Assembly: GCF_041080835.1 (NCBI RefSeq)
Contig: NZ_CP129683.1
Coordinates: 2,363,800-2,427,799 of the forward strand
DNA length: 64,000 nt
Direction: 5' to 3'
Source: Bifidobacterium sp. WK012_4_13
GTDB lineage: Bacteria > Actinomycetota > Actinomycetes > Actinomycetales > Bifidobacteriaceae
This document shows, in pieces, positions 4,560 through 50,183 of this stretch. The notes under the pieces were generated by a model. That model was not told the DNA's origin, made no database searches, and saw only the letters and a list, made by a program, of their open reading frames with translations. A program made the translations under genes and the position numbers. How positions within the stretch are numbered: the stretch's first letter is position 1; every line of letters begins with the position of its first letter.

Positions 4560-4687
4560 CTCGAGATTCCAAGTTTTGAGAGTTCATCAAAGTACAAAGA
4601 CCCTATTTTTGGCTTAACTTCGACGAGAACAAGCCAAAAATAGGGTCTTTGTACTTCCACTAGTTCTCAAAACTTGCAAACTCGAGA
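4560..4687. repeat. Palindromic element, divergent copy A, with strong terminator-like hairpin
   Basis: The inner arms 4590-4615 and 4631-4656 are perfectly complementary over 26 bp with a 15-base loop. An outer imperfect stem (ctcgag, then aagttttgag, against ctcaaaactt and ctcgag) gives the same layout as the other palindromic elements in this window. It lies between two convergent genes, the sugar-binding protein and coaX, and is likely a bidirectional terminator. The outer stem sequence links it to the family; the inner stem is its own. Confidence 0.65.
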
Positions 4688-4733
4688 CGATATCTCTATA
4701 CATTGCTAGAAACGACCACATATCAATGAGAAC

Positions 4734-5504
4734 TTACCGATTTCTGTTCCGATCATAGATCATCTGCATGCCCTTGAAGATCAGATTGGGATCATAGATG
4801 TCAATGACGTCCGTTTCTCCTTCGATGATGCGTCCGAGGCCGCCGGTTGCGACGACCTTGAAGCTTTCGTTGGTTTCGGCTCGGAACTGCTTGACCGTGC
4901 GCTCGATTCCGCCGAGGAAGTTATAGAACAATCCCGCCTGCATGGCCGTTCTCGTATCGGTGGCGAAAACAGACTTGGGTCTGGTGATTTCGACCTCGGG
5001 CAGCTGTGCGGTCTTGTTCGACAGCGCCGAGGCTCCACTTCGGATGCCGACCGAAATGAGGCCGGCTGTTATCGTTCCCTTGTCGGTCACATAGTTATAG
5101 GTGGTGGCCGTGCCGAAATCCAGAACCAGCAGCGGTCCGCCATACGATCCATATGCCCCTACGCAGTCGCACAGGCAATCTGCGCCGAGCGATCGTGGAT
5201 CATCCATGCGAATGTTGATGCCGGTCTTGATGCCAGGGCCAACCACGATTGGCTCAACGCCAAAGAACTTGATGATTGCAGCGCGGAATGAGTGCATCAC
5301 GTTGGGCACCACGGAAGAGATGATCACATCTTCAACATCGTCGTTGGAGTAGCTGCTCATCTGAAGGAATCCGCTGATCATCATGCCATATTCATCGGAG
5401 GTGTGGCTCACCGAGCTGGTCATGCGGTAGTTGGCAACGATGTTGCCGCCTTCGAGAAAGCCGAGCACAATGTCGGTGTTTCCAATATCAACGGCAATCA
5501 GCAT
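4734..5504 (-). CDS. coaX: Type III pantothenate kinase
   Basis: Catalyses ATP-dependent phosphorylation of pantothenate, the first step of coenzyme A synthesis, in the cytosol. At 256 residues it has the normal family length. Visible motifs are the N-terminal phosphate loop DIGNT (residues 6-10), GPGIKTGI, the GAD motif with the catalytic Asp (here GADCLCD, where many family members have Arg after the Asp) and LDFGTATT. A ribosome site AAGGA precedes the ATG. It stands alone, convergent with the sugar-binding protein gene and divergent from the oligopeptide transport operon. Confidence 0.93.
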   Translation of the reverse strand: MLIAVDIGNTDIVLGFLEGGNIVANYRMTSSVSHTSDEYGMMISGFLQMSSYSNDDVEDVIISSVVPNVMHSFRAAIIKFFGVEPIVVGPGIKTGINIRMDDPRSLGADCLCDCVGAYGSYGGPLLVLDFGTATTYNYVTDKGTITAGLISVGIRSGASALSNKTAQLPEVEITRPKSVFATDTRTAMQAGLFYNFLGGIERTVKQFRAETNESFKVVATGGLGRIIEGETDVIDIYDPNLIFKGMQMIYDRNRNR

Positions 5505-5779
5505 AAGCAGTCCTTTTCCAATGCAGGCGCGTGTTCTCTGTCACTGTATCGCAACTTGAAGCGACTGCCGAACGTGAGCCGGCCGATTGCGCATGATGTA
5601 CAAATTCACTTCGCGGGAATTGCCGGGAACGCGCTATCATGGTGGGGTGATGGTCGACCTCATAAGGCGGCCAATCAGCATCACACCGCTAACGTTGACG
5701 GATGCGACGGATTGCCGTGAATGGGGGCGAGTGCGATACATGCAAATAATTCAATATGTAACACACAAGAGAGAGCATA

Positions 5780-7477
5780 ATGGCTGAAAACTCAAACAGC
5801 GGGGATGCGACGAGCACCACGACTGAATCAACGGAACAATTCAAGGCTCAGGGCATTGCGCCAGATTCAAACGATCAGGCAGATCTAGGCAGTCGCAATG
5901 TGTCAGGCGATCAGTCAGGATCGACTGACGAATCACTGAATTCATATCAGAGGCAGCGCAAAGGCATGCCATCCTGGGCATGGATCATAGCTGCGATAGC
6001 AGCTGTGGCGATTGTAGTTGGGGGCGTGTTCGCATATCAACGCAACAATTCAGGCAGCGATGCCGCTGCCGCATCAGACTCGATTGCCATTGGACTGACA
6101 CTGGCTCCAACCAATCTTGACATTCGCAATGAGGCGGGTACCGCTCTCGATCAGGCTCTGATCGGCAATGTCTATGAGGGTCTGGTGGCTCGAAATTCCG
6201 AAAACACCGTCATTCCTGCACTGGCGAAGTCATGGACGGTATCCAGCGATGCCAAGACCTATACCTTCGAGCTCAATGCCGACGAGCATTTCTCGAACGG
6301 CGATGCCTTGGATTCCAAAGACGTTGTCTGGTCGCTCGACTCGGTGATCAAGAACGAATATCAGGATTATCAGGTTCTTGCCAACGTTGACTCCATTGCT
6401 GCAGATGGTGCGAATACCGTTGTCTTGAAGCTCAAGAAGCCTGATGCGACGCTGCTGTGGAACCTCACAGGGCGAGCAGGTCTCGTCTTCGACGAGGACG
6501 CTTCGTATGATGCCAAGACGCAGGCCATTGGTTCTGGCCCATATTTGCTGAAAAGTTTCAAGCAGAACGAATCGTTGACCTTGACGGCCAACACGAAGTA
6601 CTGGGGAAGTCACCAGGCAAAGACCAAGACGGTCGTGCTCAGATACATCACGGACACCAATGCTGCAATCAATGCGCTGAAGGGCAACAGCATTCAGGTC
6701 CTTGCCCCGATAACGGAGAATCTCTCCGCATCGATTGCAAAAGACAGCAATTATGTCGTCAAGGCTGGCAACGACACCGACAAGTTCGTGCTTGCCTTCA
6801 ACGGCAAGGGTTCGAAAACATCGGACAAACGCGTTCGAGAGGCAATTCGCTATGCGATTGACAATAAGGCACTGATTTCTTCGCGTGGTGGTGCGGACGC
6901 AGCTCTAGGCGGTCCGATTCCATCGTTGGATCCCGGATATGAGGATCTCACGAATCTCTATCCATACGATCAGTCGAAGGCTAAGAAGTTGTTGGCCGAG
7001 GCCGGATACAGCACTTCCAATCCATTGAAGCTCAACTTTGAATATGCGAATATCTATGGCACCGATCTTGGCAATCAGCTCCGTTCACAGCTCAAGGCCG
7101 TAGGCATTGACTTGAATGTCAAGGTTGTCGAGTTCTCTGCCTGGCTGCAGGATGTCTATACCAACAAGAACTATGACCTTTCTTTGGTCGACCACAACGA
7201 AAGTCACGATTTCTACAATTGGGCCAATCCCGAATACTACTTCAATTACGACAACAAGCAGGTTCAGGAACTCTATGCCAAGGCTGTCGCGTCCACTTCG
7301 GATGCCGAGTATGAATCGTATCTGAAGAAGGCTGCCCGCTTGGTTTCCGAAGATGCGCCTGCTGACTGGCTGTTCAACTACCGCGTCACCACGGCATATC
7401 GCAAGGGCGTCACCGGCTTCCCGCTCAATCTCAACCAGTCGCTGCTGCCTTTGTGGAACGTTCAATACAAGGCCTAA
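5780..7477 (+). CDS. Oligopeptide/nickel-type ABC substrate-binding protein, membrane-anchored
   Basis: SBP_bac_5 family protein of 565 residues. It opens with an acidic Ser/Thr-rich stretch of about 60 residues, then a single hydrophobic helix at about residues 66-86 (WAWIIAAIAAVAIVVGG), then the periplasmic-binding fold (from IAIGLTLAPTNLDIRNEAG onward). No lipobox Cys follows the helix, so anchoring seems to be by an uncleaved signal-anchor rather than by lipid. Family motifs include TYTFELNADEHFSNGD and RVREAIRYAIDNKALI. It begins a five-gene operon with two permeases and two ATPases. The substrate is probably a peptide; nickel or another small ligand cannot be excluded. Confidence 0.9.
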   Translation: MAENSNSGDATSTTTESTEQFKAQGIAPDSNDQADLGSRNVSGDQSGSTDESLNSYQRQRKGMPSWAWIIAAIAAVAIVVGGVFAYQRNNSGSDAAAASDSIAIGLTLAPTNLDIRNEAGTALDQALIGNVYEGLVARNSENTVIPALAKSWTVSSDAKTYTFELNADEHFSNGDALDSKDVVWSLDSVIKNEYQDYQVLANVDSIAADGANTVVLKLKKPDATLLWNLTGRAGLVFDEDASYDAKTQAIGSGPYLLKSFKQNESLTLTANTKYWGSHQAKTKTVVLRYITDTNAAINALKGNSIQVLAPITENLSASIAKDSNYVVKAGNDTDKFVLAFNGKGSKTSDKRVREAIRYAIDNKALISSRGGADAALGGPIPSLDPGYEDLTNLYPYDQSKAKKLLAEAGYSTSNPLKLNFEYANIYGTDLGNQLRSQLKAVGIDLNVKVVEFSAWLQDVYTNKNYDLSLVDHNESHDFYNWANPEYYFNYDNKQVQELYAKAVASTSDAEYESYLKKAARLVSEDAPADWLFNYRVTTAYRKGVTGFPLNLNQSLLPLWNVQYKA

Positions 7478-7503
7478 GGACCGTTTGCAACCATGGAATA
7501 TAT

Positions 7504-12644: not shown

Positions 12645-12755
12645 AAGCCGAACGGGCTTGCAATCGGCAGAGAACAGCGTTGCAGAAGGCAATAATAGCA
12701 AGCTTCAACCGAAAACAACGGAATTTGTAAACAACGGAATTATAAGGAAAGAATC

Positions 12756-17226: not shown

Positions 17227-17276
17227 AGGAATGTCTGATTGAATTCGCGCGGCAAGGTGGCCGATTCGGGCGTGCA

Positions 17277-17386
17277 TTCAAGTTTTTGGCACTTGCCCAA
17301 GTAGAAACGCCGGTTTGGGGCTTTATGCCGGTCGACGATTCAACGATTTCACGGCTTTCTACTTGGGCAAGTGCCAAAAACTTGAA
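17277..17386. repeat. Palindromic element, copy B
   Basis: 110-bp element with perfectly complementary 27-bp arms (starting ttcaagtttttggcacttg) and a 56-base loop that opens with gaaacgc. It lies in the gap between the GNAT and alr genes, 50 bases after the GNAT stop. Confidence 0.9.
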
Positions 17387-17442
17387 AACTCGTCGCGCGT
17401 GGCAGATATTCCGTCACAGATTCGTCTCAATATGGGGTCACA

Positions 17443-20961: not shown

Positions 20962-21047
20962 GACACCGCTCTGCTTGAAGTTCGGGTCTGAAGGAATGAC
21001 GCGCGGAACTTTCATGGATTTTCCGCCCAATCTGTCGGAATTTCATC

Positions 21048-21169
21048 CGAGTTTGCAAGTTTTTGGCACTTGTCCAAGTAGAAACGCTTGATATGCCCGT
21101 GACGGCGGTCGGTCTGATGCCGTTTTCGCGTGTTTGTACTTTGGCGAGTGCCAAAAACTTGCAAACTCG
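21048..21169. repeat. Palindromic element, copy C
   Basis: 122-bp element starting 87 bases after the dgt stop. Arms (from cgagtttgcaagtttttggc) pair over about 32 bp with few mismatches. Its inner loop holds gacggcggtcgg, the exact reverse complement of ccgaccgccgtc in the loop of copy D, while the neighbouring gatgccgttttc is in the same direction. Confidence 0.9.
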
Positions 21170-21470
21170 CTCTGAGCTTTCCATTTTGGCGCTGTTTCTG
21201 ACATGGAACTCTTCTTCTGAGGTGGTGCTCTGCGAGGCGATTCTGCCGATGGAATACATTATGTATAATGTTGTACATTTGGTATTGATATAAATCTGTT
21301 GTCATGAGTCGGCCTTCGTAAGTTGGCTGTCATGCGTTTGGGATGTCCGGTCGCATGGCACTTGTGGTTTTGTCGGATAGAGCTTGCCGGTTTCCTTCCA
21401 TTTCGCGGGGGGGGGGGCGTTTTGCCTCTCTTGTCTTGTGTGGTGGTGGGTGTGGGTCAGGGGTGTGTGT
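21170..21470 (+). promoter_or_regulatory. Leader region of the giant surface-protein gene, with 11-G tract
   Basis: An AT-rich promoter-like patch includes tataat at 21264-21269. A run of eleven G occupies 21407-21417, 53 bases before the preferred ATG at 21471. Upstream ATGs at 21332 and 21343 open frames that run through the tract but are out of frame with the big ORF at this tract length; a one-base loss or gain respectively would join them to it. The preferred ATG follows CAGGGGTG. Homopolymers this long are prone to slippage. Confidence 0.7.
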
Positions 21471-24400
21471 ATGGTGCGTGGTGCTTTCGGACGGTTCGTC
21501 TCGCTGCTTTGTGCGTGCGGGCGCGTGCTCGCCGGTGATTTCTCCCGTCCTCTCCTGATTTCTCTCCGTTCGTTGCGGTCGCGCTGGCTGGTGACGGTGG
21601 CGGTGTCGTGGGTGGCGCTGGTGATCGGCGTGGTGGGTTTGGTGCAGGTGTCGTCGTTCTTCTCGGATCTGAAGTCGTTGGTTGCGTTCCAGGACACGCT
21701 GCTGAAGACGAGCGTGCCGCTGGACGTCAAGAACCTGAAGCTGGACACACATATCGGGGTGCTCGAGGACGACGATCCCACCGAGGCCGAAACCGATGCG
21801 GCATCCGTGGCGAACGTGGGCTTCGAGCGTCTGGTCTTGAGCGACGTGGCGACCCTCTCGTTCGACGTGGCGTTTGGGGGCGATCCCGGCGATGGCGCGG
21901 CGAACATGAAGGGCAGCATGATCAAGATCGCGTGGGGCGACCCGGATGACGCGCTGCCGGTCAGTGGCTACTTCTACCTGTATCCGTCGAACTGGACGGC
22001 GGCCAACATCCGCAACGACGTGAACAACGGGGCGAATGCTTCGCTGAACAAGACGGACGACGTGCTGGACCTGCCGATGAACGACGGGGACGTGTACGCG
22101 CAGGGCCAGGCGTACGTGTTCCAGGACACGGACGCTTTCCTCGTCCATGCCAGCGAGGTGAACGCATCGGACGGGGACCCGGCCAATGACAGGTCGAGCC
22201 AGACCTTCACGTTCAAGGTGGCGTTCGTGCGCGACTACGCGGCCGGTTCGGACGGCAACAGCCAGTTGCAGGCGGATTTCATGCAGTTCGATGGCAGGCG
22301 CCTGCATGTGGATGTGTCCGCGAACTCGCGGACCGGCATGAACAGGAAGGAACTCGAGCTCAAGGCCAAGATCACGCCCACGATGGTCGCGGGCACGACC
22401 GGCGAGGCTGAGGCCACGAAGTATTGGGGCAACGCCAATGCTGCGCTGAACATCACCAAGGGCAGCACGGAGACCGTGACCTATGTCGATGCGGCAAGCG
22501 CGACGGCGCTCGATTCGTCGGGCAACACCTTCACGGCGGCGGGAGGCACAATCAACACGCTCACCGAGGCGGTCACGGTGCCTACGAGCTGGAACGGCAT
22601 GCCGGTGCTGGGCAGCTGGGACGTGTCCCTCGCCAAGGACCAGACCGCGATGGCGTACTACACGGATTCGAAGGCGGGCACGGCGAGCAAGCATGACCTC
22701 TATGTCGCGGGCCGTCAGGGGGTGCTGGCGAGCAACGCGAACAGTCTGTTCCATTCCTTCCGCTCCATCAGCTTCGACCTTGGCCTGCTCGATGTGTGCG
22801 AGAGCGAGGACATGAGATACATGTTTCATAACGTGCAGATGGTCAGGGACGGCTTCTTCGACATCTCGCACTTCCGCACGCGCAACACGACCACGATGGT
22901 CGAGATGTTCCATTACTTCGGGGATTCGGCGGCTGATGGCGTCAGGCTGAAGCATATCGACATGTCGTATGGCGGGTTCGCCGACCAGAGCAAGCCCAAC
23001 GTGGGTGCGTGGGACACGTCGAGCGTGGTCAACACGTCGAACATGTTCAGATATGTGTATTACGTCGAGAGCATCGACGTGACGGGCTGGGACCTGAGCC
23101 AGAAGACCAACATCGTGCTGAACAACATGTTCGAGAACGCGCAGCGACTCAAGACGCTCACGGGGCTGGGCACATGGAAGACCGACGGCGTGAGCAGCAC
23201 GGCCAGCATGTTCGTCAACTGGGCGACCCAGGTGACGACCTTCACCGAGGCTGACGTGCTTGATCTCGGCGCCGACACCACAAACGGGTATTGGAACGTG
23301 TCCAGGCTCACGGCCGCGAACAACATGTTCGCCGGTGCGAACAAGATCAGAAGCATCGACGTGACGGGCTGGGACCTGAGCGCGGCCAACGCCCGTTCGA
23401 CCATCAGCACCGCTTCCATGTTCCAGAACACGAGCATGCTCTCGAAGATCGTAGGCATCGCTTCGTGGAAGACGGGCGGCGTACGCTACATGAATACGAT
23501 GTTCCAAGGGTGGTGCAGCAACGCTGCTGCATGCGCCGGTGTGACGCTCGACCTGCACGCGCAGGGCGCCGACGTGTGGGACATGTCGACTGTCGAGAGC
23601 ACGTTCGCGATGTTTTCCGGCGCGACCTACGTCACGCAGGTCAATGTCACTGGCTGGCAGACCGTCAAGGTCACCACCATGGCGAACATGTTCGATGCCA
23701 CGACCAGGCTGTGCGTCATCCCCGGGATTTCGGGCCTGAAGACCAACGCGGTGACCAATGTGTCTGCGATGTTCTACCGGTGGGCGCAGGATGCCACCTG
23801 CGCGGGAGTGACCCTTGACCTGCACGCCCAGGCTGGCGGCGTGTGGGACATGTCGAAGGTCACGACGGCGGCAGCAATGTTCAAGGAGGCCACCAGGGTA
23901 GAGGGTCTCGACGTGGCTGGCTGGACGTTTCCCACGCTCAGCGGCACGAACGGCGGCGTGACCCTGGCGGAGATGTTCCGCTCCACCACGATGCTCAGCT
24001 CGTTCACCGGCATCGAGACCTGGGACACCACCGGAGTGTGGAGCACCTCGTACATGTTCGCTGGCTGGGCGAGCGGGGTCACGTTCTCGGCCGCCGTGGC
24101 CTGCGACCTGTGCATTCCGACCAGCGGCAACGCTTGGGATGTGACGAAGGTGACGAACGCGTCATACATGTTCGTCGACGCGGCCAAGGCGCGCACGATC
24201 GACGCGACCGGATGGCAGTTCACCGCGCCGACGAACAACGTGAACCTCGAGGGCATGTTCCAGAACACGTATCTGCTCGAGACGATCACGGGCATCTCCG
24301 ACTGGCCGACAAGCTCGGTGACGAATATCGCGCGCATGTTCTATCAGTGGGGCAACAACGTGCCGACGGTCAGCCTGTCGATCACGCTCGATGCGAAGGC

Positions 24401-27400
24401 TGGCGGCGTGTGGGACGTGTCGCGGGTGACGAACGCCTCGTACATGTTCTATAACGTCGACAAAACGCACACGGTGCATGCGGACGGCTGGGAGTTCATC
24501 GCCCCGTCGAACAACGTGACGCTGAACAACATGTTCAACGAGGCCACGAACCTTCAGACCATCGACGGAATCACGAGCTGGGAGACCACGGCCGTCACGA
24601 ACCTGTCTTCCATGTTCCTCAGCTGGGGCAACGGCCTGACCGCAGCGAGCCTCAATCTGCGCACCAGTGGCGATGCGTGGGACACGGGCAGAGTCACCAC
24701 CGCTGCGAACATGTTCAACAATGCTGCCAAGATGACGCACGTGGACACGACGGGCTGGGACTTCAGCGATGACACGGGGCGGACGGGCATCAACCTCGAG
24801 GCGATGTTCCGAGACACCGCCAAGCTGCAGGAAATAACTGGCATCACGGACTGGCCCACGACCGGCGTGAGCAACATCCTCACGATGTTCTTCCAGGCGG
24901 GCGATGGCGCGCAGACGACTCTGGAGCTCGACCTACACACCAACGGCGACAGCTGGAACGTGGCGCGCGTCACGAATCTGGGTTCGGCGCTGAACTGGAA
25001 CAATCCATACACGCCAAAGGACAACGGAACCTTCACCGGTTCGCGCTTCACCAAAATCGATGTCACAGGCTGGGACGTCTCCTTGGTCACAACGATGGAC
25101 TCGACCTTCAAGGACACGTACCGTCTTGCCGAGATCGATGGCATCAGCGAGTGGAAGACCGCGAGCCTGGTACGCACGCAGGGCATGTTCTGGGGGCATG
25201 GAACCTCGGTCACCTATGATCCTGACGTCGTCAACCTGGACCTGCATTCGCGGGCCGACGGTTCGTGGGACACGTTGAAGCTGACGGACACGTATGCCAT
25301 GTTCAAGAATGCAAGCACGATTCACCGCATCGATGCGACGGGCTGGGACTTCAGCGACACGACAGGGCGCACGGGCATCAGATTCGAGATGATGTTCCAG
25401 AACACCAGCAAGCTGCATGCAGTGGAGGGAATCACCGGCTGGACGACGAGCGGCGTCGCGAACGTTGCTGCCATGTTCATGGCCTCGGGAGATGCTGCGA
25501 AGACGACGCTGGAACTCGATCTGCACACCGATGGTGCCGTATGGAACATGGCGAGGGTGACGAACCTGGGGAGCGATTGGAATTACAATCCGCCTTACAC
25601 CGGCTCGGACAACGGCATGTTCACTGACTCCCGCTTCACCAGGATCGATGTCACGGGCTGGGACGTCACGAACGTGACAACGATGGATTCGCTGTTCAAG
25701 AACATGTACAATCTGACCGACATCGCGGGGATCGGCACATGGAGCACCCCGAGCCTGGTACGGACACGAAGCACTTTCGAAGCCACGAGAGTGCTGAAGA
25801 AACTTGACCTGAGCGGATTCGACATGAGCTCGGTGACGGCCATCGACCGCATGTTCCGATACACGTATGTGCTTGAGGAGCTCAAGATCGGTACCAGCTT
25901 CATTATCGGCGTAAGCACATCCGTCGGCGATGCGGGTACGCAGATGGGGCGGGACGTTCCTGGCTACACGGGCAAGTGGTTCCGCGACCTGCATCCGACC
26001 GATCTGGACACTCCGGTGAACATCTTTGCACAGGGCACGACGGTCGCGCAGGGGACCTGGTATCCAGAGCATACGGTGTCGCTGACCCTGGACGGCAACT
26101 GGACGGGCAAGCCTGCCGATCCGGTGAAAGCCATCAAGTATGGTGACGCGAGCGTGCCAACGTTCGCGAAGCCGACGCGCACGGGCTGGGTGTTCGAGGG
26201 TTACTGGACGGGCAAGGGCGCGGCCGACGGCGAAGTAACGGGCGATCAGGTGGTCGATGACACGGGTGCGTACGTGGACGCGATAGGATACGTCACCTCT
26301 GGCATCGGATGGACACGCTATGCGGATACGACGCTCTACGCGAAGTGGAAGGAGGCGACGTACTCGATCACGGTGAATCTGACCCGTAATGAGACCACGG
26401 CGCAGCGTGTGAACGTGTGGCTGGATTCGGATGGCGTGTCGGGTGACGAGACGTATACCGGCGCAGGCGGCTACTGGCGTGCTGCGTCGGGCACCTACAA
26501 CAGCTTCGTGATCATCGGCGTGCCGTACACGAAGACGAAGGGCAAGGTCATGGCCGAGTACATAGATGCGGGCACCTACAACCTGACCACGGGCGCGCAT
26601 ACGGCCACGTCGACCGGCCAAGGCACGGCCGTGACGGTTGCGACCTATGCAGCGAACGTGACTTCGGCCCAGACCCACGCGCTGAAGATAGCGCAGCTCT
26701 ATTCGATCACGTACTCCCGTTCGACCACGCCGAGCGGCGCGTCGGGCACACTGCCAAGCGCGCAGACCAAGATCCACGGCACGGCCATCACCCTGGGCAC
26801 GAACAACAGCACGGTGACCGGCTACACGAAGAACGGGTGGTACACCACGGCCACCGGCGCGGGCGGCACCGCATACGCCAACGGCGCCAGCTACGCGACC
26901 AACGCCGCGCTGACCCTGTACGAGGCGTGGATCGTGAAGACGAACGTGATCACGCTGGATAGCCAGGGCGCGACCAGCGCGGGTACCACGGGCTATACGG
27001 CGACCTTCGGCACCACGGCTCCGGCGCTTACCGCGCCAACGAAGACGGGTCAGACCTTTGAGGGCTATTACTCTGCTGTTGACGGTGGTGGCGTACAGGT
27101 GCTGACCAGCGCGATGGAGTATCCGACGACGGTGGCTGGATTTGTCAATACGGGCAGATGGGCGCGGACGGACGAGGCTGCGGTAACGCTCTACGCCAAG
27201 TGGACGGTGACTGTAGCATTCAAGTCGTATGACGGCGCCTCGGACGTGCTGAGCAGCGTCGTGCTCGAGCCTGGCAGCAACTACACGATTCCCGCAGCGC
27301 CTGCGGTCATGAACCAGGTGTTCGTGGGGTGGGCGGAAACCGCGAACGTTTCGAGAATAACCGCGTTGTATACCGATGCGGCGAATACGGTGCGGGCGCC

Positions 27401-28211: not shown

Positions 28212-28278
28212 TGGTTGCATCGATTGGTTCACGTTCTCGTAGAGAGGGCATCGGCTGTGTGCGTTCTGCGCATGGTGA

Positions 28279-28551
28279 TGGCGTGACCGTTTCGCTGCTA
28301 CGACAGGTTCTGGGACAAAGCAGGCATTCGCCCTTTCAATTGGCGATATCAGAACTACCTTGGGTCTTCCTTCTGATTTGAATCCGCTGCTTCAAAGTTT
28401 TAGCGATATGACCGGGTACTGGTTGCGCTCACCTGCTCACCATAATAAAGCCACAACGGTTAGTCCGCTTCCTTCCAACGTCAGCGAGAGAAGTGTGCGC
28501 AACGAGACAGCGGCCGCCCGTCCTGCCATGTGGGTCGAGATACCCCAGTAG
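28279..28551 (+). pseudogene. Detached second copy of the surface protein's C-terminal module
   Basis: An open stretch of 90 codons with no start signal of its own, just after the giant gene. It reads RFAATTGSGTKQAFALSIGD, which aligns with CFATTVGSGAKQAFQLSYGD in the main protein. It continues to GYWLRSP and ends AARPAMWVEIPQ, parallel to CARPALWLTL. An in-frame TGA lies directly before it. The middle differs strongly from the intact copy. It is either a decayed duplicate or a silent donor sequence for exchanging the C-terminus. Confidence 0.75.
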
Positions 28552-28786
28552 TTGTGATTGGCAGCTCTCTATCCGTCCCGCTTTGTGGATGGTGCCGACG
28601 CTGTAGCCATGGCCTGGGTGTCTGCGTGGTTGCGGCGGGGTTGCTGCCGTATTGGACGCTAAAATTCCGGTTCGACATGCTTCGATCCGTTTCTCGGAGA
28701 GGGAGGGGTTGTACCCGATTCTGTCCGTTCGGGGTCGTCCGTGCTCCGAAGGGAAGGCAATCCCACTGGCCCGCGCCCAGCCTCTC

Positions 28787-28912
28787 CTGCTGCATCTCCC
28801 TCAGGGCGATGCAGCATCTCTTGGTCTTGAGATGCAGCATCTCTCGTGCAGAGATGCTGCATCTGTCGGTGTGGAGACGCGACTTCTGTGAGTGTGGAGA
28901 TGCGGCATCACT
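28787..28912. repeat. Cluster of gagatgcwgcatctc palindromes
   Basis: Five matches to the 15-bp palindrome gagatgcwgcatctc (near 28787, 28806, 28830, 28851 and 28897), some with one or two changes. Spacing is irregular, so this is not a CRISPR array. It could be a binding-site cluster or a mini-repeat that has spread locally. Confidence 0.7.
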
Positions 28913-29003
28913 CGGGAAGCGATGTGACATGCCGTCGCCGTGCGCAGGCGCATTATCTGCGTTCGCGGGTTGTCTGCTGGCGGTATTTGGCGTGCTTTTG
29001 CAT

Positions 29004-29101
29004 TGTTGTGGCCGGTTTTCAGGAAAGTGCCGGTATCTAGGCGTTTTTGCACCGTAGTTTCAACGTTCTCAAAGGTCGATTCTGAAACAGGGCCACAAAA
29101 A
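29004..29101 (+). repeat. Second hairpin family, copy 1
   Basis: About 98 bp. The termini are inverted over 19 bp with 15 matches (left ttgtggccggttttcagga; right end read in reverse ttgtggccctgtttcagaa). Shares roughly 80 percent of its bases with the copy at 29585 in the same direction, including the stretch caaaggtcgattctgaaac. Confidence 0.8.
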
Positions 29102-29245
29102 TACGATTTCACCTGTTTTCTCCGATATTTCTTCTGGCGCTTCTCCTTTTCTTGCCCGTTTCTCAGCGGCTTCGGCTCTTTGCAGGGCTTTCCGATCTTG
29201 TTCCTCTCGCTTTTGGCGTGCTGTCGAGCTTCTTCCACTCCCACT

Positions 29246-29357
29246 TTGCAAGTTTTGAGAACTTGGCAAAGTATAAACGCCCCAAATCGGCTTGAATCCG
29301 ACCGCCGTCATGCCGTTTCCGACGGTTTGTACTTCGCCAAGTGCCCAAAACTTGCAA
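29246..29357 (+). repeat. Palindromic element, copy D
   Basis: 112-bp element with arms beginning ttgcaagttttgagaacttg and a loop containing gtataaacgc and aaatcggcttgaat. It belongs to a close subfamily with copies E and F, with which it also shares the left flank cccact. Confidence 0.88.
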
Positions 29358-29453
29358 TGCGGACCCGATGGCAAGGTGTGCAGCATCCATTTGGCGTATG
29401 GGTTGGTGAAGATTCTTGAACGATGCTTCCCACGTCATCCCGGGCGTCCCTTT

Positions 29454-29556
29454 GTCATCCCGAGCGAAGTCGAGGGATCTCTCGACTACGGCTACGCCTC
29501 CGCTCGAGATGACGGGGGAAGCATGTGTGGCGTGACGGGGGAAGCATGTGTGGCGT
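29454..29556 (+). repeat. Third palindromic repeat and 23-bp direct duplication
   Basis: 29454-29513 is a hairpin repeat bounded by gtcatcccgagcg and cgctcgagatgac (12 of 13 pairs). Its translation gives the familiar spurious peptide VIPSEVEGS seen in many bacterial genomes. The next bases, 29511-29533 and 29534-29556, are a 23-bp unit (gacgggggaagcatgtgtgg plus cgt) repeated exactly. Confidence 0.75.
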
Positions 29557-29584
29557 GACGGTGTGGTTTGGCTTGAGGGTTTTA

Positions 29585-29683
29585 TGTTGTTGCCGGTTTT
29601 CAGGATAGTGCCGGTATCAACGCATTGGCGCACTGTGGTTTCAACGTTTTCAAAGGTCGATTCTGAAACGAGGCAGCAAAATA
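29585..29683 (+). repeat. Second hairpin family, copy 2
   Basis: About 99 bp, directly repeated with 29004-29101. Its ends also pair with each other (ttgttgcc against a right end reading ttgctgcc in reverse). Both ends differ from copy 1, so self-complementarity has been roughly kept while the sequence changed. Confidence 0.8.
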
Positions 29684-29904
29684 ATGTCCATGTGACCCTC
29701 GTTTTGCTAAGTATCCGACTTTTCAAGGATTGAAAATCCCTTTGGCTCACTTCTAGCAGGTGTGAGCCAATTGCAGACTGGATACTCCTGATTCGAATTA
29801 ACTCGTGTACTATTTTTTATATCCTGTCAAATTATTTTGGTTATGCAATGCAACAATCCAAGGTCAATCTGGCGCCGAGCATTTCTTTCCAAGAAAGATT
29901 CATT

Positions 29905-30090
29905 ATGAGCGATTTGGATTGGTTCTCAGGAGCAGGTCGACGCCCTTGGACAAATTCATCGAATGAACAAGATTCGCTTGCAAAGCAGATCAATTTCTCA
30001 TTTGATTATGTTGAGATCATGGATCTACGCAATCAGAGCCATAGCGGTTATCGTGCGGTGCACCGGGAGGACTCATGGAAGGCATTCTGA
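29905..30090 (+). CDS. Small hypothetical protein
   Basis: 61-residue ORF starting MSDLDWFSGAGRRPW; I recognise no family. It is AT-richer than its surroundings and lies downstream of an AT-rich promoter-like stretch (29800-29850). An earlier ATG at 29848 would add 19 residues but has no ribosome site, whereas AAGAAAG precedes 29905. It overlaps the next ORF by 16 bases, and that overlap is the best argument that the two are a real coupled pair. Function unknown. Confidence 0.5.
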   Translation: MSDLDWFSGAGRRPWTNSSNEQDSLAKQINFSFDYVEIMDLRNQSHSGYRAVHREDSWKAF

Positions 30091-30353
30091 TTAAATACAA
30101 CCGCAAGAACGGCGAACGCATCGTACATGAATTTAAAGGGGACGATGGTTATCTTGAGGCAATGCAGACCAAGACGTTCCTAGAATCCATCTCACAGCCT
30201 CAGGCAGACTGGGAGGTCGTTGTTATCGGATCCGATTCGATAGCGACGGTGGAAAGGACCCATTCGAGATATTTTTCCGGTAGGGATGTCACTTCAGATT
30301 ATGCCGATGTGAAGTACGTATATAGGACTGCAGGGAAACCATCAATCTCTTAG
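30075..30353 (+). CDS. Small hypothetical protein
   Basis: 92-residue soluble protein starting MEGILIKYNRKNGERIVHEF, with alternating charged and hydrophobic residues consistent with a small alpha/beta domain. A strong ribosome site (GGGAGG) precedes the ATG inside the preceding ORF. I recognise no motif. Position among a toxin-antitoxin pair, a broken toxin and many repeats suggests accessory DNA. A role as an immunity or antitoxin-type partner of the upstream ORF is only a guess. Confidence 0.6.
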   Translation: MEGILIKYNRKNGERIVHEFKGDDGYLEAMQTKTFLESISQPQADWEVVVIGSDSIATVERTHSRYFSGRDVTSDYADVKYVYRTAGKPSIS

Positions 30354-30530
30354 AGTGTGACTTTCGAATATTCAATGCTTGGAGTAATCGGATATGATGT
30401 CTCGTCTGACTTCCTCATGGTTGTGATGAAGTGTCGGCGTGGCAACATGCGAAAATGTGGAACTCACCGTTGTGACACAGATGGCGTATAAATACTCCTG
30501 ACCACCGGTGTGAGTGTGGACGCACCCACT

Positions 30531-30642
30531 TTGCAAGTTTTGGGCACTTGTTGAAGTATAAACGCTCCGAATCGGCTTGAATTCGACCGCCGCCATGCCG
30601 TTTTCAGCGGTTTATTCTTTGCCAAGTGCCAAAAACTTGCAA
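30531..30642 (+). repeat. Palindromic element, copy E
   Basis: 112-bp element with arms from ttgcaagttttgggcacttg and a loop nearly identical to copies D and F (gtataaacgctccgaatcgg). It sits between two convergent genes, the hypothetical protein and the TetR regulator. Confidence 0.9.
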
Positions 30643-30809
30643 CTCCGGACCTTCTGCAATGAACGATGCCGCGGATTTCCATACGGATTCAGATTTGAAG
30701 CGCTAAGAGAGCCAATAGGTTTAATCGGTTTAATAAACGGTCTATGACTTCTTGCGTGATATTCGGCGGGTGTGATGGATGCGTCATCGTGACGGTCTGA
30801 ATTGTGGGG

Positions 30810-31367
30810 TTATAGTCGGGCAGGAAGTGCAACGGCAGTTCTCAAGGACAACGAGGCGATGATCTCATCGCTGAGTGCTGCAGGTTTGATGGCGTCTCCA
30901 TGCTGCAGATGGAATCGAAGGATGTTCCATAAGCCGCCGATCATCAGCAGGTCGATGTGCTTTTCATCGCCAAGCTCGCCGTCATGCCAAGGAAGAGGCT
31001 GCAATGGCAACAGTTCGATGAGTCGTCTGGTCTGAACGTCGAGCACTGAGCCCAGGAGGTTGTTGCGCTGCAATACTCTCAGCGTGGGCGCAGATGCGTT
31101 CCAGAACGTGAAATAGTGAATGAGAAGATCTCTGAAATCCACGAACCCGAGTTGTTTCGCCTGAGCCAGGTACTGATCCACCAGTTCACAGATGTACTCG
31201 TCTATCACATCTTGCTTGCCATGAAAGTTCTTGTAGAACGTTTTCCTCGACACGCCAGCCGAGGCGGCGATCTCGGATATCGTGATCTCGTTGAAGCTGC
31301 TCGTCCTCAGCTTGCAGAGCAGCGCAGCCACTATCATGCTTCTGGATCTCATCGCCGTCGAATTCAT
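30810..31367 (-). CDS. TetR/AcrR family transcriptional regulator
   Basis: DNA-binding repressor of 185 residues. The N-terminal helix-turn-helix is clear: ITISEIAASAGVSRKTFYKNF, with the recognition helix near SRKTFYKNF. The C-terminal ligand domain is typical in length and not conserved. The frame stays open to 31460, but that start would sit inside the palindromic operator; the ATG at 31367 has AGAGGCAGGA in front and gives a normal length. It is divergent from an HXXEE membrane protein and probably represses it and itself through the palindromes between them. Confidence 0.88.
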   Translation of the reverse strand: MNSTAMRSRSMIVAALLCKLRTSSFNEITISEIAASAGVSRKTFYKNFHGKQDVIDEYICELVDQYLAQAKQLGFVDFRDLLIHYFTFWNASAPTLRVLQRNNLLGSVLDVQTRRLIELLPLQPLPWHDGELGDEKHIDLLMIGGLWNILRFHLQHGDAIKPAALSDEIIASLSLRTAVALPARL

Positions 31368-31389
31368 CAATCCTGCCTCTTCCGAAAGG

Positions 31390-31413
31390 TTACAGAAGCA
31401 CGAATCTGTAACT
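31390..31413. promoter_or_regulatory. Secondary operator candidate for the TetR regulator
   Basis: Perfect 8-bp inverted arms gttacaga and tctgtaac with an 8-base spacer, just upstream of the regulator start. It shares the g-t-w-a-c core with the main palindrome at 31449. Confidence 0.45.
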
Positions 31414-31448
31414 GTCATCGTCTGATTGCCGGAATCGATCATACAGTA

Positions 31449-31472
31449 AATAGGTAACATATGTAACCTATT
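31449..31472. promoter_or_regulatory. TetR-type operator palindrome
   Basis: A 24-bp palindrome with only one mismatched pair: half-site aataggtaacat and its near-complement atgtaacctatt. It sits between the divergent tetR and HXXEE genes, directly ahead of the AAGGAG of the latter. Confidence 0.75.
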
Positions 31473-31483
31473 AAGGAGTGGAT

Positions 31484-32005
31484 ATGGAAATGTTCCTAAG
31501 CTACTGGATTCTGCCGATTCTGTTCATACTGCATGATTTCGAAGAGATGATAGCGATGCCGATTTGGAAGAGAAGGCACCGTCGGATGCTTTCGACCATG
31601 AGCAAGCCATTTTTCGGCGCAGTCTCCAATGGGCAGGCGTTCTCGTGCGGAGTTCTGGAAGAAATGACGATTCTTCTCGTTGTTTCCGCCATCTGCAGCG
31701 TAACGAACGACAGCACGCTCTATCTTGCATTCTGCATTGCATACGCGTCACATTTCATCATGCACTATCGCATGTGCATGCAGATGAGGGCATATGTGCC
31801 TGGCGTGGTCTCCGCCACGATAGAGATGCCGGTGATGATCTGGCTCATCATCTCATACTGGCATATGGGACAGGCGACGTTGGAGACATTTCTCGCCTAT
31901 CAGGCGGTGGTGCTGCTCTTCGTCTATGCGAATCTCCTGATCATGCACAGGTTGATGCCTGCAATCCAATCAAGGCTCCTGGCTTATGCCAATGACCCTG
32001 CCTAA
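31484..32005 (+). CDS. HXXEE domain membrane protein
   Basis: Integral membrane protein of about 173 residues with four or more hydrophobic helices. The defining motif is present as HDFEE in ILPILFILHDFEEMIAMPIW, and a second acidic pair lies in GVLEEMTILL. Conserved His residues (ASHFIMHYR, LIMHRL) support a metal- or acid-dependent activity known only from the family name; no reaction is established to my knowledge. The ATG at 31484 follows AAGGAG at ideal spacing; a GTG six bases earlier is less likely. The adjoining TetR repressor gene suggests induction by a small hydrophobic compound. Confidence 0.85.
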   Translation: MEMFLSYWILPILFILHDFEEMIAMPIWKRRHRRMLSTMSKPFFGAVSNGQAFSCGVLEEMTILLVVSAICSVTNDSTLYLAFCIAYASHFIMHYRMCMQMRAYVPGVVSATIEMPVMIWLIISYWHMGQATLETFLAYQAVVLLFVYANLLIMHRLMPAIQSRLLAYANDPA

Positions 32006-32222
32006 TGCGCGGACCTGATTCGTGGGACGGACAGCGCTGATCTGTTGCCTATACTCATGCTGGTGGAAAGCCGGTGAACGGGGCGATTGTCCGCGACTGC
32101 CATGCATCGTCCGGTCGTTACACGGCGACTGAACTCACCGCCATGCACCTGTCTGCACACTCGGCATGCTCTCTCGAACGCATGAAGTTCATCGGCGGAA
32201 CCTCCATGATCGCGGCCAGCGC

Positions 32223-32576
32223 CTAGCCATTCGTGAGCTGAACATACTCAACCACATTCCCATCGGGATGCCTGGCGACCAGCCGCGGGCCATTCGGACC
32301 TGGATCGGGCCCCTCCAGCAGTTCTCCGCCAGCACGGGCGACTGCTTCCACGACCCTGCCCATATCGTGAACATTGACCGTGGCGACATGGGCACGCACC
32401 TCGGCATCGGCACCCTGCAGCAGAAGGAACGCCCCCACCTTTGCCAGACGAACCCCGTCATGGGAAAACATCAGAGGAGAGTCATCTCCGGTCAATTCCT
32501 CATACAATGGCAAAGCGCCATCCAGATCGTCCACATAGACACGAGCAAGCACGCTGATAATATTGTCATCCATCAC
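32223..32576 (-). CDS. VOC family protein (glyoxalase/bleomycin resistance fold)
   Basis: 117-residue protein with one vicinal-oxygen-chelate module: VLARVYVDDLDGALPLYEEL at the start, a central HVATVNVHDMGRVVEAV, and the C-terminal GPRLVARHPDGNVVEYVQL where the closing Glu should bind metal. Such proteins act as dimers in detoxification or isomerisation; the substrate cannot be told. Two adjacent ATGs follow GGGAGG. It is a single gene, apparently not in an operon. Confidence 0.87.
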   Translation of the reverse strand: MMDDNIISVLARVYVDDLDGALPLYEELTGDDSPLMFSHDGVRLAKVGAFLLLQGADAEVRAHVATVNVHDMGRVVEAVARAGGELLEGPDPGPNGPRLVARHPDGNVVEYVQLTNG

Positions 32577-32660
32577 GCCTCCCTAGACGTGCTTCCATCT
32601 TCCCACGGCGTTCCCGTGTCCGCCCAGTCTGCACGGGAACAGCGCGAGCCCAGCGACAGT

Positions 32661-32814
32661 ATCCTGCTGGATGGTCGGTATAGGGATCGCCAGTTGAAGG
32701 GCGATGCGCGCAGATTCAGGGAATTGCATATTCAGGGTGATTGGCTTCTGGTATACCGAGTCGAAGGGGAGCAAGTCATCCTCGCACGCACCGGCACGCA
32801 TGATGGCCTCTCGC
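32661..32814 (+). pseudogene. 5'-truncated YafQ-type toxin remnant
   Basis: In the plus frame this encodes LDGRYRDRQLKGDARRFREL, then HIQGDWLLVYRV and ARTGTHDGL. That matches the second half of the intact YafQ at 33511 (ALKGELAGFRELHIQADWLL, TTGSHDDLF). The first 45 or so residues of a toxin and any antitoxin are missing, and the frame runs on beyond the usual end. It is a dead copy from a second toxin-antitoxin locus. Confidence 0.75.
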
Positions 32815-33033
32815 AAGGGTGGACTGTTCGCGATTATCGTGCCTTTGCAACGCTCGATTCTTCCCGCCGTGTGATATGTCCGTGTGACTCGACCGTCTGA
32901 TGTGCCGGTTGTTCAGATGTTGTCGTTCCAAGCCGTGCTTCTCGCGTTTTGTGAACTTGGCGTATGACTGAGGGGCATGAATCGCGCAGATTACCGTGAT
33001 TCGTTCCAATTCCATCGTATGGTGAGCCCACTT

Positions 33034-33145
33034 TGCAAGTTTTTGGCACTTGGCAAAGTATAAACGCTCCAAATCGGCTTGAATCAGACCACCGTGATGC
33101 CGTTTTCGCCGGTTTGTACTTGGCCAAGTGCCAAAAACTTGCAAG
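33034..33145 (+). repeat. Palindromic element, copy F
   Basis: 112-bp element with arms ttgcaagtttttggcacttg against caagtgccaaaaacttgcaa and the same loop subfamily as D and E. It ends about 120 bases before the dinJ start, close to that operon's control region. Confidence 0.92.
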
Positions 33146-33177
33146 TTGAGTCTGTTGAATGCGAAATCTGAAATTTA

Positions 33178-33266: not shown

Positions 33267-33518
33267 ATGAGTACTACGACGATTGCGATTCGTACCGACG
33301 AGGAGACGAAGCGCGAGGCTCAGAAACTGTTCAAATCAATGGGAATGGACATGAGCACCGCGATCAACATGTTCCTGCGTCAGACCATCAGCGAGCATCG
33401 CTTGCCATTCCGGCCTGGCTTGAGTCGATTCGAGCGTGAGGTTCTCGATGCTGCAAGCGAACCGGCGCAGAAAGTTGAAAGCCTGGAGGAATTTATCAAG
33501 GAGATTCGTGATGCTTAA
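33267..33518 (+). CDS. dinJ: Antitoxin of the RelB/DinJ family
   Basis: 83-residue antitoxin. The N-terminal ribbon-helix-helix DNA-binding domain is clear (TTIAIRTDEETKREAQKLF followed by GMDMSTAINMFLRQ), and the C-terminal segment should wrap the toxin. A very strong ribosome site (AAAGGAGGTG) precedes the ATG, as expected when antitoxin must be made in excess. It overlaps the toxin gene by eight bases. Confidence 0.93.
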   Translation: MSTTTIAIRTDEETKREAQKLFKSMGMDMSTAINMFLRQTISEHRLPFRPGLSRFEREVLDAASEPAQKVESLEEFIKEIRDA

Positions 33519-33792
33519 ATACATCAAGCGCCCCGCTTCTTTCCTGCGACAAGTGAAAAAGCTGAAACGTAAGCACTATGACATAGCTCTTTTGAAAAAT
33601 GCCATTCGTAGCATCATGCTGAATAATGCTCAGAAGCTTGCTACTAAGTACCGCGACCATGCGCTCAAAGGTGAGCTCGCGGGCTTCAGAGAGCTCCATA
33701 TCCAAGCCGACTGGCTTCTGATCTATAAGATCGAGTATGACACGCTGACTCTGGTGGTCATCACCACCGGAAGCCATGACGACCTATTCTGA
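33511..33792 (+). CDS. yafQ: mRNA interferase toxin, YafQ family
   Basis: 93-residue RelE-fold ribonuclease that cuts mRNA in the ribosome. Its expected functional residues are present: His in RDHALKG, His and Asp in RELHIQADWLLIY, and the terminal TTGSHDDLF with its catalytic His. It overlaps dinJ, so translation is coupled. The frame is open upstream, but the ATG at 33511 matches the family N-terminus (MLKYIKRPASFLRQVKKLKR). A broken relative lies about 0.7 kb upstream. Confidence 0.93.
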   Translation: MLKYIKRPASFLRQVKKLKRKHYDIALLKNAIRSIMLNNAQKLATKYRDHALKGELAGFRELHIQADWLLIYKIEYDTLTLVVITTGSHDDLF

Positions 33793-41579: not shown

Positions 41580-41653
41580 ATCGAGTATGATGAAGGCATC
41601 CGCTCCACAGCGGACATGTCCCAAAGATGCAACATGAAGAAAGCCGGATTACA

Positions 41654-45219: not shown

Positions 45220-45241
45220 GTGATCGGCTGAGTGATCCATG

Positions 45242-45352
45242 TTGCAAGTTTTTGGCACTTGCTGAAGTATAAACGCGCAAAAACCTTGATGCGGCGTACG
45301 GAACGAAGCCGATCTGAGGCTGTTATATCCGAACAAGTGCCAAAAACTTGAA
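45242..45352 (-). repeat. Palindromic element, copy G, opposite orientation
   Basis: About 111 bp, starting 22 bases after the dnaG stop. Arms ttgcaagtttttggcacttg and caagtgccaaaaacttgaa pair closely. The loop carries aagccgat and, at its left side, gtataaacgc; read on the minus strand the order atcggctt then gcgcgtttatactt matches copies D-F, so this copy is inverted relative to them. Confidence 0.88.
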
Positions 45353-45510
45353 GGTCCGATGCGATTGCTCTCCGAATATGCAGAGCGATGGAAGATTCTG
45401 TGGCATAATGCTTGCAAATGTTCGCATATGTTCGAAAATGCAGTCCCATCCACGCATATGAAACTCGCGCACGCCTCTATCCGTGGGTGTGACTACAATA
45501 GTTCTGGTTT

Positions 45511-45584: not shown

Positions 45585-45788
45585 CGATTCTTTCTGCATC
45601 AATGATTGCAAGGCAAGGCATTCGCTTGGATGGAGCCTGGGATTTGGGTGTAGCTTGGGGTTTCGTGCCCGATGCCCGATGCATCAGGACTTTGGCCACT
45701 TCTTTGCAAGGCCGCCACTTTTTATAAGACAGTCGCTTGTTTGTATGACAATCGCTTCTTTGTAAGACTGAGGCATTACACTTCAACT

Positions 45789-47717: not shown

Positions 47718-47841
47718 CCCATGATGTGTGTTCGGCATCATGCGATTGGTTCCCGACGCTTCGCAATCAACGTAGTTCACGTCGTTTTCTTCACTCGTGC
47801 GTAGAGTAGGCAGGGTCACATCGTTCGGATTGCGAGGTCAT

Positions 47842-48375: not shown

Positions 48376-48397
48376 AGAGACCAAGGGACGAATCACG

Positions 48398-49531: not shown

Positions 49532-49646
49532 AGCCTTATGATCGCAGGCGCATGGGGCACGCCTGCGATCAGCTTCAGGCGAGTCGATTGATTCCTGATG
49601 CGTGTCTGCGATACATTGGAACGGAAGGCAGAGCATAAGGAGCGAT

Positions 49647-50042
49647 ATGACCGAGCATGTAATACGGCAGACGAAGCAGAAGGATGCAGTTCGAAAAGCT
49701 CTCCGCGCCTCAGGCGACTTCGTGACCGCCCAGGAATTGCATCGTCAGCTTGAGGATGATGGTTCGACGATCGGTCTGGCAACGGTCTATCGGCAATTGA
49801 ACCTGCTGGCAGAGGTCGGGCAGGCGGACACGATTCAGCTCAATGGCTCTCAGATGTTCAGAATGTGCGAGGATACGAGCCATCATCATCATCTGGTATG
49901 CACGCACTGTGGCAAGACGGTTGAAATCGAGCCGCCCGATGAGACGTGGCTGAGAAAGACCGCTGCCGCGCACGGTTTCACGGTGAGCTCCCATACTTTG
50001 GAACTGTTCGGACTCTGCGAAGACTGTCAACAGGGTCAATAG
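49647..50042 (+). CDS. Fur family metal-responsive regulator
   Basis: 131-residue repressor. The winged helix includes TIGLATVYRQLNLL. The metal region has four consecutive His (79-82) followed by Cys85 and Cys88 in CTHCGK and Cys124 and Cys127 in CEDC, a structural zinc site. Whether it senses iron (Fur), zinc (Zur) or peroxide (PerR) cannot be settled. AAGGAG precedes the ATG. A perfect hairpin element follows the stop. Confidence 0.9.
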   Translation: MTEHVIRQTKQKDAVRKALRASGDFVTAQELHRQLEDDGSTIGLATVYRQLNLLAEVGQADTIQLNGSQMFRMCEDTSHHHHLVCTHCGKTVEIEPPDETWLRKTAAAHGFTVSSHTLELFGLCEDCQQGQ

Positions 50043-50053
50043 CGGGTCCTGGA

Positions 50054-50183
50054 AAATCGAGATTGCGAGTTTTGCGGCAATTTCAAAGTATCAACCGCTG
50101 AAATCGGCTTTCTGCCCATGGCACTTCAACGGTTTTGCACCTCGTATACTTTGAAATTGCCGCAAAACTCGCAATCTCGATTT
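50054..50183 (+). repeat. Palindromic element, copy H, with perfect 38-bp stem
   Basis: 130 bp. The arms 50054-50091 and 50146-50183 are perfectly complementary over 38 bp. Arm sequence (attgcgagttttgcggcaat) differs from other copies at many positions, always matched by the opposite arm. The loop keeps caaagtat and aaatcggctt. It lies between the convergent fur-like and MprF-like genes, 12 bases after the former. Confidence 0.92.

Follow-up and report, generated by a model that had tools for sequence, protein, structure and literature searches.

Palindromic elements of about 122 bp in Bifidobacteriaceae as a probable family of REPIN-like, non-autonomous mobile repeats

In the genome of Bifidobacterium sp. 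WK012_4_13 (G000) and in the two nearest relatives compared (G005 and G006), intergenic palindromes of about 122 bp form a family which we judge, somewhat more probably than otherwise, to consist of non-autonomous, REPIN-like mobile elements of the Bifidobacteriaceae. This grading is a joint one, covering together the REPIN-like mobile family, a putative trans-acting protein, the correction of arms by template switching, and length steps of one helical turn. The window, meaning the whole stretch of 64,000 nt under analysis, corresponds to positions 2,363,800-2,427,799 of the forward strand of NZ_CP129683.1 (GCF_041080835.1).

The eight elements of the window

All eight palindromic elements of the original prediction proved real, lying at or a few bases from where they had been placed. 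Element A (4562..4684; 123 bp), with CAAGTTTTGAGA-type arms outside and a separate perfect inner stem, is of unclassified loop orientation and is assigned to no strand; the orthologous site in G005 carries an element of another subfamily. The other seven are each 122 bp long, and the strand given for them is the loop orientation. Element B (17271..17392, minus) has CAAGTTTTTGGCACTTG arms that pair perfectly over 31 bp, where 27 bp had been predicted at 17277, and its site is empty in both G005 and G006. Element C (21048..21169, plus), with a loop orientation opposite to that of D-F, is inside a 12-kb block missing from the syntenic place in both relatives. The arm blocks are two bases apart in D (29241..29362, minus; GAGAACTTG / GGGCACTTG) and one base apart in E (30526..30647, minus; GGGCACTTG / TGGCACTTG), and F (33028..33149, minus) has TGGCACTTG in both arms and a D/E-like loop. 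Element G (45237..45358, plus) shows 17 bp of perfect core arms and a reversed loop, and its orthologous site in G005 or G006 is without an element. Element H (50058..50179, minus) carries CGAGTTTTGCGGCAATT arms, a G006 type; its perfect pairing extends 4 bp beyond each side (50054-50183), the 38-bp perfect arms predicted at 50054 being confirmed. G006 has an orthologous copy of H (loop identity, 0.70) and G005 has none.

The predicted loop reversal at 45242 (element G) held, but C (21048) is also reversed when compared with B, D, E, F and H, and reversal of its whole loop would explain the 12-base inverted block that had been described in C. The RNA-fold z-scores of the eight hairpins ranged from -4.7 to -13.2, and for each of them none of 200 shuffles folded as well.

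Copy number and distribution

The ends conserved across the family are CGAG-N4-C(A/G)AGTTTT, and each arm contains an AAGTA block further in. Across 59 copies of the own genome and 45 of the relatives, the border of conservation coincides, to within a base or two, with CGAG/CTCG, which gives the element length of 122 bp. The loop is nearly free in sequence and nearly fixed in length, and the arm subfamilies are lineage-specific. The original prediction, to be given up if only its own copies existed, had counted a family of eight; this was a large undercount, and copies occur well beyond these, 98 places in the own genome matching one of two disjoint exact arm-pair patterns (57 the first and 41 the second).

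The catalogue, built with a model that rewards pairing, comprises 148 copies in stretches of the own genome, G005 and G006, most stretches of the relatives having been chosen because they contain elements. It includes two weak matches (L160:2919 and L063:636) and omits an element cut by the end of a stretch (L064:1-109), the short G021/G002 matches (L100, L101) and two copies of the third arm type found later (L146:10294 and L149:332). Copy sets differed between analyses: 59 + 45 copies of modal length for covariation by position, 140 for G.T/A.C counts and arm class, 141 for target-site duplication, and 14 of 24 same-site pairs for same-site changes. Where copies overlap predicted genes, the overlap never exceeds 60 bp. 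The own-genome CAAG subfamily was found in one of 27 genus genomes, the exact arm-pair pattern gave no match in named genomes, and the family was found at none of 20 named Bifidobacterium loci reached via the dnaG product of the window. No such Bifidobacterium family is described in the titles and opening parts of abstracts of the open-licence papers that the literature searches retrieved.

Mobility

Many copies are missing, or the site is differently filled, at the orthologous place in sister species. The original interpretation was in part supported: the high copy number, the lineage-specific subfamilies and the sites empty in relatives bear out a REP/MITE-like family, whereas its other suggestion, bidirectional terminators or structured 3' RNA, fares badly on T-runs and on mismatch type (below).

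A Y1 (RAYT/IS200-type) transposase, sought as PF01797 at E <= 0.001 with a control that was positive in 5 of 14 known genomes, was detected in none of the 27 genus genomes, and a RAYT partner was rejected on this ground. The GTAG-tagged REP core is likewise absent, the conserved ends being CGAG. The element population is REPIN-like in a genus in which a RAYT-type gene was not found (27 genomes).

An ordinary MITE, derived by deletion from an IS that encodes a DDE transposase and sharing its terminal inverted repeats, would have such repeats, the size of about 122 bp, the high copy number and the intergenic location seen here, but it is improbable. No target-site duplication of 1-12 bp was supported among 141 copies, the highest value being 0.298 at 4 bp, where 0.244 was expected (z about 3, with 12 lengths tested). 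Among the 31 best-paired copies z never exceeded 1.6, and exact flanking repeats of at least 3 bp were absent. No arm pair enclosing a gene was found in about 1.37 Mb of the three genomes, in which lone arm matches numbered six, one in each of six stretches. The arms, moreover, differ greatly among subfamilies with pairing maintained.

Covariation of the arms

The predicted covariation of the arms was borne out, 23 copies exceeding all 500 shuffles in all five measures; pairing in these copies was 92.7% in register and 24-49% when the partner was shifted by 1-3 columns. By position, most of the variable pairs within positions 3-27 showed covariation of pairing, with z exceeding 2 and rising to 9 (59 + 45 copies). 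The prediction was also to fall if compensation were not in excess. Between orthologous copies, compensation exceeds what simple independence would give: 25 Watson-Crick double changes were counted against about 7.5 expected (462 pair cells from 14 of the 24 same-site pairs); eight of the 25 represent one position-16 change in G005, and 17 remain. Orthologous copies persist and stay paired while changing. Loops are nearly saturated, and own-genome CAAG copies have a loop identity of 0.61 (shuffled, 0.57) versus a core arm identity of 0.94. The earlier statement that the fold and not the sequence is kept is only half right.

Compensatory changes are usually read as the mark of a functional RNA fold. 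Transcribed hairpins under selection on the RNA fold, acting as bidirectional terminators, 3'-end stabilisers or RNase III sites, would account for the compensatory changes, for the very stable folds, and for the location of elements shortly downstream of genes (median distances to the gene 3' end of 80, 32 and 43 bp, and to the 5' end of 223, 197 and 146 bp, in the own genome, G005 and G006, respectively). On the transcribed strand of 76 co-directional copies, however, G.T mismatches (100) do not outnumber A.C mismatches (109; p = 0.58), and therefore RNA folding does not explain the arm covariation. A T-run follows the element in only 10 of 141 gene-end cases, and at L069:5986 the element comes directly after a T-run hairpin that was interpreted as a conventional terminator. 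The only Rfam family above the gathering score in the window is a tRNA, with no match to an element, and gene ends with and without elements did not differ in terminators, in a comparison of low power (7-8% detected without elements). The stepping of lengths by the DNA helical turn and the flipping of loops also speak against selection on RNA, which we regard as unlikely.

Flipped loops and mixed arms suggest that the process acts on DNA. Between L070:7924 of G000 and L135:5525 of G006 the interior is reversed while the flanks and outer arms are not (0.74 vs 0.60; 0.38% of 5,049 null pairs reach 0.74), and at L161:3395 the loop is reversed in G005, with G000 and G006 alike (0.79 vs 0.51). Of five apparent flips, these two (0.79 and 0.74) lie above 0.69, the 95% point of the null distribution, one (0.68) is just under it, and two (0.65 and 0.64) are well inside; the flip is clear at two sites. 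Ten of the 24 same-site pairs have unlike loops or differing lengths and may be separate insertions. Loop orientation showed no replichore bias (21+/13- vs 16+/19-, Fisher p = 0.23), as counted by hand with the genome split at about 1.2 Mb, from which the true origin position may differ. Arms of different class occur in 31 of 140 copies, with AATT and CTTT blocks combined in seven; among the 31, eight have one unassignable arm, and in 12 the two arms are one base apart, a difference that point mutation explains. These data fit a process in which one arm of the DNA is copied onto the other, as published for template switching, which at inverted repeats both homogenises the arms and inverts the spacer (PMC8604942; PMC8794818); the cases described concern yeast genes and RNA genes and not, as far as these reports go, a bacterial repeat family.

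Element length

With 31 gap lengths permitted per arm-type pattern, listed spans of three arm types took either a base length or one longer by about 10-11 bp, with none between: 101-103 (52 copies) or 112 (5) for the first type in the own genome (n = 57), 101-104 (75) or 112-114 (5) for the second among 80 listed of 139, and 99-100 (49) or 109-111 (21) for the third (n = 70). Five longer copies in G006 fit such steps less well: two have a span of 120 (+19, which falls 2 bp below two turns) and three a span of 132 (+31). Single outliers of 127, 146 and 156 occurred in the stretches analysed. The step of about one helical turn suggests that a putative protein holds both arms on duplex DNA. A single recent founder of the long class was rejected: the loops of 13 long copies are no more alike than shuffled ones (median identity, 0.58 vs 0.56; none of 78 pairs at 0.68 or above), and therefore the class is old or has formed repeatedly.

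These steps in three arm types would also be expected of duplex sites used by the host, where a chromosomal DNA-binding protein (related to the nucleoid, supercoiling or transcription) would link the two arms at gene ends and each resident copy would be under selection for its arms, spacing and pairing. At core pairs 8-22 a mismatch is found in 0-10% of copies, a rarity for which purifying selection accounts as well as correction does, orthologous copies persist, and one position changed in step across G005 copies. Elements lie between convergent genes in 22/75, 10/24 and 16/42 copies of the own genome, G005 and G006, against 23, 14 and 10% of intergenic bases, an excess that is clear in G005 and G006 and slight in the own genome. 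Nevertheless, the many orthologous sites of sister species that lack a copy and the restriction of the CAAG subfamily to one genome in 27 make host use rather unlikely, and covariation inside a single genome extends to positions beyond the core, which the specificity of one protein does not explain.

Discussion

A REPIN-like mobile family would explain the data without any host function. A putative trans-acting protein requiring both ends would make new copies; the palindrome may fold at the replication fork, one arm serving as template for the other, and such templating would correct the stem and sometimes invert the loop, giving rise to arm covariation. Exchange between copies would spread new arm types, and total length would be stepped by about one helical turn because the protein has to contact the two arms from one side of the double helix. 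Tentatively, the elements may belong to an undescribed transposition or DNA-bridging system, in which a protein binds both duplex arms in strict helical phase, so that length is quantised, and copies or maintains the palindromes without a Y1 transposase or target duplication, template switching keeping the arms identical and flipping the loop.

ERIC, RUP and Correia elements are intergenic palindromes of 107-130 bp and uncertain mobility that insert at TA with duplication; the present family differs from that description in showing no target-site duplication. The REPINs of Pseudomonas and others, which are served by RAYTs, are described as extragenic, with inverted conserved ends and with spacer length and hairpin capacity outweighing sequence (PMC3116915). 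The Bifidobacterium family resembles that description in its two conserved inverted ends, fixed-length spacer, long hairpin, frequent compensatory changes and extragenic location. It differs in that none of the 27 genus genomes gave a Y1 match, the GTAG tag is lacking and the ends are CGAG; it also has flipped loops, copies with mixed arms and a length class exceeding the base length by about one helical turn. CGTC-tagged REPs are described as units of 20-40 bp, mostly downstream of coding regions, reported from five phyla with Actinobacteria not among them (PMC3733652); they too are high-copy palindromes without a dedicated transposase, while the Bifidobacterium element is a single 122-bp palindrome without the CGTC tag.

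With more than 100 copies in three species, a cause in RNA folding can be separated from one at the DNA level. The stepped length hints at the putative DNA-binding protein and makes it testable, and a REPIN-like population is shown in a genus without a detected RAYT-type gene.

Distribution of the palindrome family

The eight hairpins of the window were upheld by sequence and RNA-fold checks, and the family extends beyond them, since whole-genome scans with an arm pattern, a covariance model and arm pairs all matched more copies. The 17-base arm pattern, with at most two mismatches, was found at 60 forward and 59 reverse places of the 2.47-Mb genome to which the window belongs (G000; from the named relatives of its dnaG product, a member of Bifidobacterium or closely allied to it), against none for the reversed pattern used as control; with at most one mismatch, it was absent from the 26 other genus genomes examined. 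A covariance model built from 23 G000 copies matched in 5 of 27 genus genomes, giving on both strands at least 135 rows in G000, at least 122 in G005 and at least 134 in G006 (the two nearest relatives), together with 6 rows in G021 and 3 in G002, where the elements are shorter. Under stricter filters the model matched 7 of 151 family genomes, including G126, a member of another genus, with CAAGTTTTGAGAACTTG arms. Genome-wide, exact arm-pair patterns occurred at 57 + 41 places in G000, 34 + 38 in G005 and 64 + 32 in G006. The stretches examined yielded a catalogue of 148 copies (78 from G000, 25 from G005 and 45 from G006), of which the densities are not to be read as estimates because these stretches were mostly selected for containing copies.

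The G126 copies (stretches L252-L255) carry the GAGAACTTG arm type, as do window copies A (4562) and D (29241), which suggests old spread or transfer. Other species have long palindromes of their own, repeated within the short stretches seen (L095, L096, L100, L101 and, from named Bifidobacterium, L172-L191): one of G016 (L095, L096), for example, is GATAACTGCACTAAAAGGACAGC, those of G002 (L101) and G021 (L100) are CAATTTTGGGCACTTT-like, and those of B. subtile (L180) and B. tibiigranuli (L183) resemble each other. Hairpins of the type GTCATCCCGAGCG...GGGATCTC, a motif widespread in bacteria, coexist with the family in G005 (L091:4678, L091:19924 and L094:12976).

Anatomy and genomic position

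Conservation ends no more than 1-2 bases from CGAG/CTCG in both species groups, the border being less sharp in the relatives. Each arm begins with the CGAG end and four bases under looser constraint, followed by C(A/G)AGTTTT, a block characteristic of the subfamily, three variable positions and then AAGTA. Weak motifs (AAATCGTTGAAAT and AAGCC) mark the asymmetric loop, which was seen in either orientation. Element length was 121-123 bp in 128 of the 148 copies and 131-133 bp in 9; the remaining 11 measured 113-120, 124, 128 and 143 bp, 7 of them being copies of the third arm type, whose ends the covariance model does not know. Overlap with predicted genes did not exceed 60 bp in any of the 148, the genes being predicted with a simple script that missed some. 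Copies lie close to gene 3' ends and more distant from 5' ends, and for 141 copies the neighbouring genes were convergent in 48 cases, co-directional in 81 and divergent in 12. Two elements of G005 adjoin with less than 30 bp between them (L117:5902-6174). Element F (33028) is flanked by two genes matching YafQ/RelE-type toxins (window 32166-32897 and 33436-33789).

Element length in steps of about one helical turn

Spans, the distances covered by arm-pair matches, were scanned in whole genomes with 31 gap lengths permitted and tallied by hand. The 57 G000 copies of the first arm type showed spans of 101 (3), 102 (47), 103 (2) and 112 (5). For the second type, which accounts for 41 places in G000 and whose spans were listed in G005 and G006, the 34 G005 copies had spans of 101-104 (32), 113 and 114, and the 46 of 64 G006 matches listed had 102-104 (43), 112, 113 and 114. 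The third type, of which the arm-pair scan found none in G000 or G126, gave 99-100 (29) and 110-111 (9) among 38 copies in G005, and 99-100 (20) and 109-110 (12) among 32 in G006. No span between the two modes was present among the matches listed, despite loops close to saturation (identity 0.61 versus 0.57 when shuffled). A turn of B-DNA is a step of 10-11 bp, and the two modes differ by about one helical turn. A scan for longer spans detected five copies, all in G006, at 120 (two, +19) and 132 (three, +31); the +19 spans do not match an exact second turn. The stretches examined, with up to 3 mismatches and 60-200 bases permitted, showed the same modes and single spans of 127, 146 and 156. 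By loop similarity, 13 long copies do not form one recent lineage; a single old origin could still account for them.

Co-variation of the arms and its probable cause

The arms had been described as differing between copies while staying complementary within each. Co-variation of arm pairs exceeded z = 2 at the majority of variable positions between 3 and 27, with values up to 9; positions from 28 inward and the loop were in the main without it. Both sides had changed in 38 cells against 11.4 in shuffles (23 copies). Orthologous copies bore this out, with 25 double Watson-Crick changes against about 7.5 expected from a simple independence sum (14 orthologous pairs out of 24 same-site pairs). 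These pairs were taken at loop identity of at least 0.64. As the best of two orientations, 20% of null pairs also reach 0.64, so that the less similar pairs depend on their common flanks. Eight of the 25 represent a single change at position 16 in G005; T at this position of GAGTTTTG arms was found in 25/32 cases in G005, 17/79 in G006 and 0/27 in G000.

If RNA folding were under selection, G.T mismatches should exceed A.C on the transcribed strand. They were no commoner, either in 76 copies oriented by co-directional neighbours (100 versus 109) or in the subset lying 150 bp or less from a stop (87 versus 92), and the structured 3' RNA that had been suggested as one possibility was not supported.

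The inside of the element is reversed between unflipped flanks and outer arms in one comparison of orthologous copies (L070:7924 / L135:5525); at L161:3395, G000 and G006 share an orientation that is reversed in G005. The remaining apparent loop flips are weak. The two arms belong to different classes in 31 of 140 copies: 8 have one unassignable arm, 12 differ by one base and 11 by two or more. Seven of these 11 bring together an AATT and a CTTT block, a mixture that can hardly be put down to point mutation. Of the window copies, D has arms that disagree by two bases and E (30526) arms that disagree by one, beside F, whose arms match and whose loop is very similar. Loop flips and mixed arms need DNA-level events. 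Template switching between inverted repeats is described in PMC8604942 as homogenising arms and inverting the spacer, and PMC8794818 indicates that it can keep stems intact. Template switching between the arms at the DNA level would homogenise them and sometimes invert the loop. There is good evidence that arm co-variation arises at the DNA level, most likely through template switching. Alternatively, selection on each resident copy may keep the arms paired, given that mismatches at core pairs 8-22 occur in no more than 10% of copies.

Turnover and relation to known repeats

The syntenic region of G005 lacks B, G and H (50058) and, where the window has A, carries an element of another subfamily; H has an orthologous copy in G006. 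At site 657 of stretch L069, the element is present in G000 and G006, and G005 retains its apparent last bases, so that loss by deletion is suggested there. With sites in relatives empty, differently filled or apparently reduced to a remnant, copies are therefore both gained and lost.

About 12 kb of the window (20974-33163), which comprise elements C-F and an ORF of 2275 codons, have no counterpart at the syntenic location of either G005 or G006. Within it, 30817-32027 was probably transferred recently, judging from 98% identity with G006 C1:305983-307193 as against about 74-80% for the matches which this query gave in syntenic parts of G006, and from its TetR-like and HXXEE-domain genes. L075:3707-4177 and L171 align over 487 bp (93.6% identity) with an identical element at one edge, and this duplication ends almost exactly at the outer end of the element.

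As first noted, no transposase lies nearby: among ten window proteins near copies, none had a transposase match over the cut-off, and one had a helix-turn-helix match below it. A Y1 transposase was not matched in the 27 genus genomes. No target-site duplication was seen in 141 copies (lengths 1-12), and no arm pair enclosed a gene in about 1.37 Mb of the three genomes; the REP/MITE-like family first proposed was supported. CGTC REPs, as treated in PMC3733652, likewise have no dedicated transposase. The palindrome family is a real and sizeable repeat family, here termed REPIN-like rather than a REPIN.
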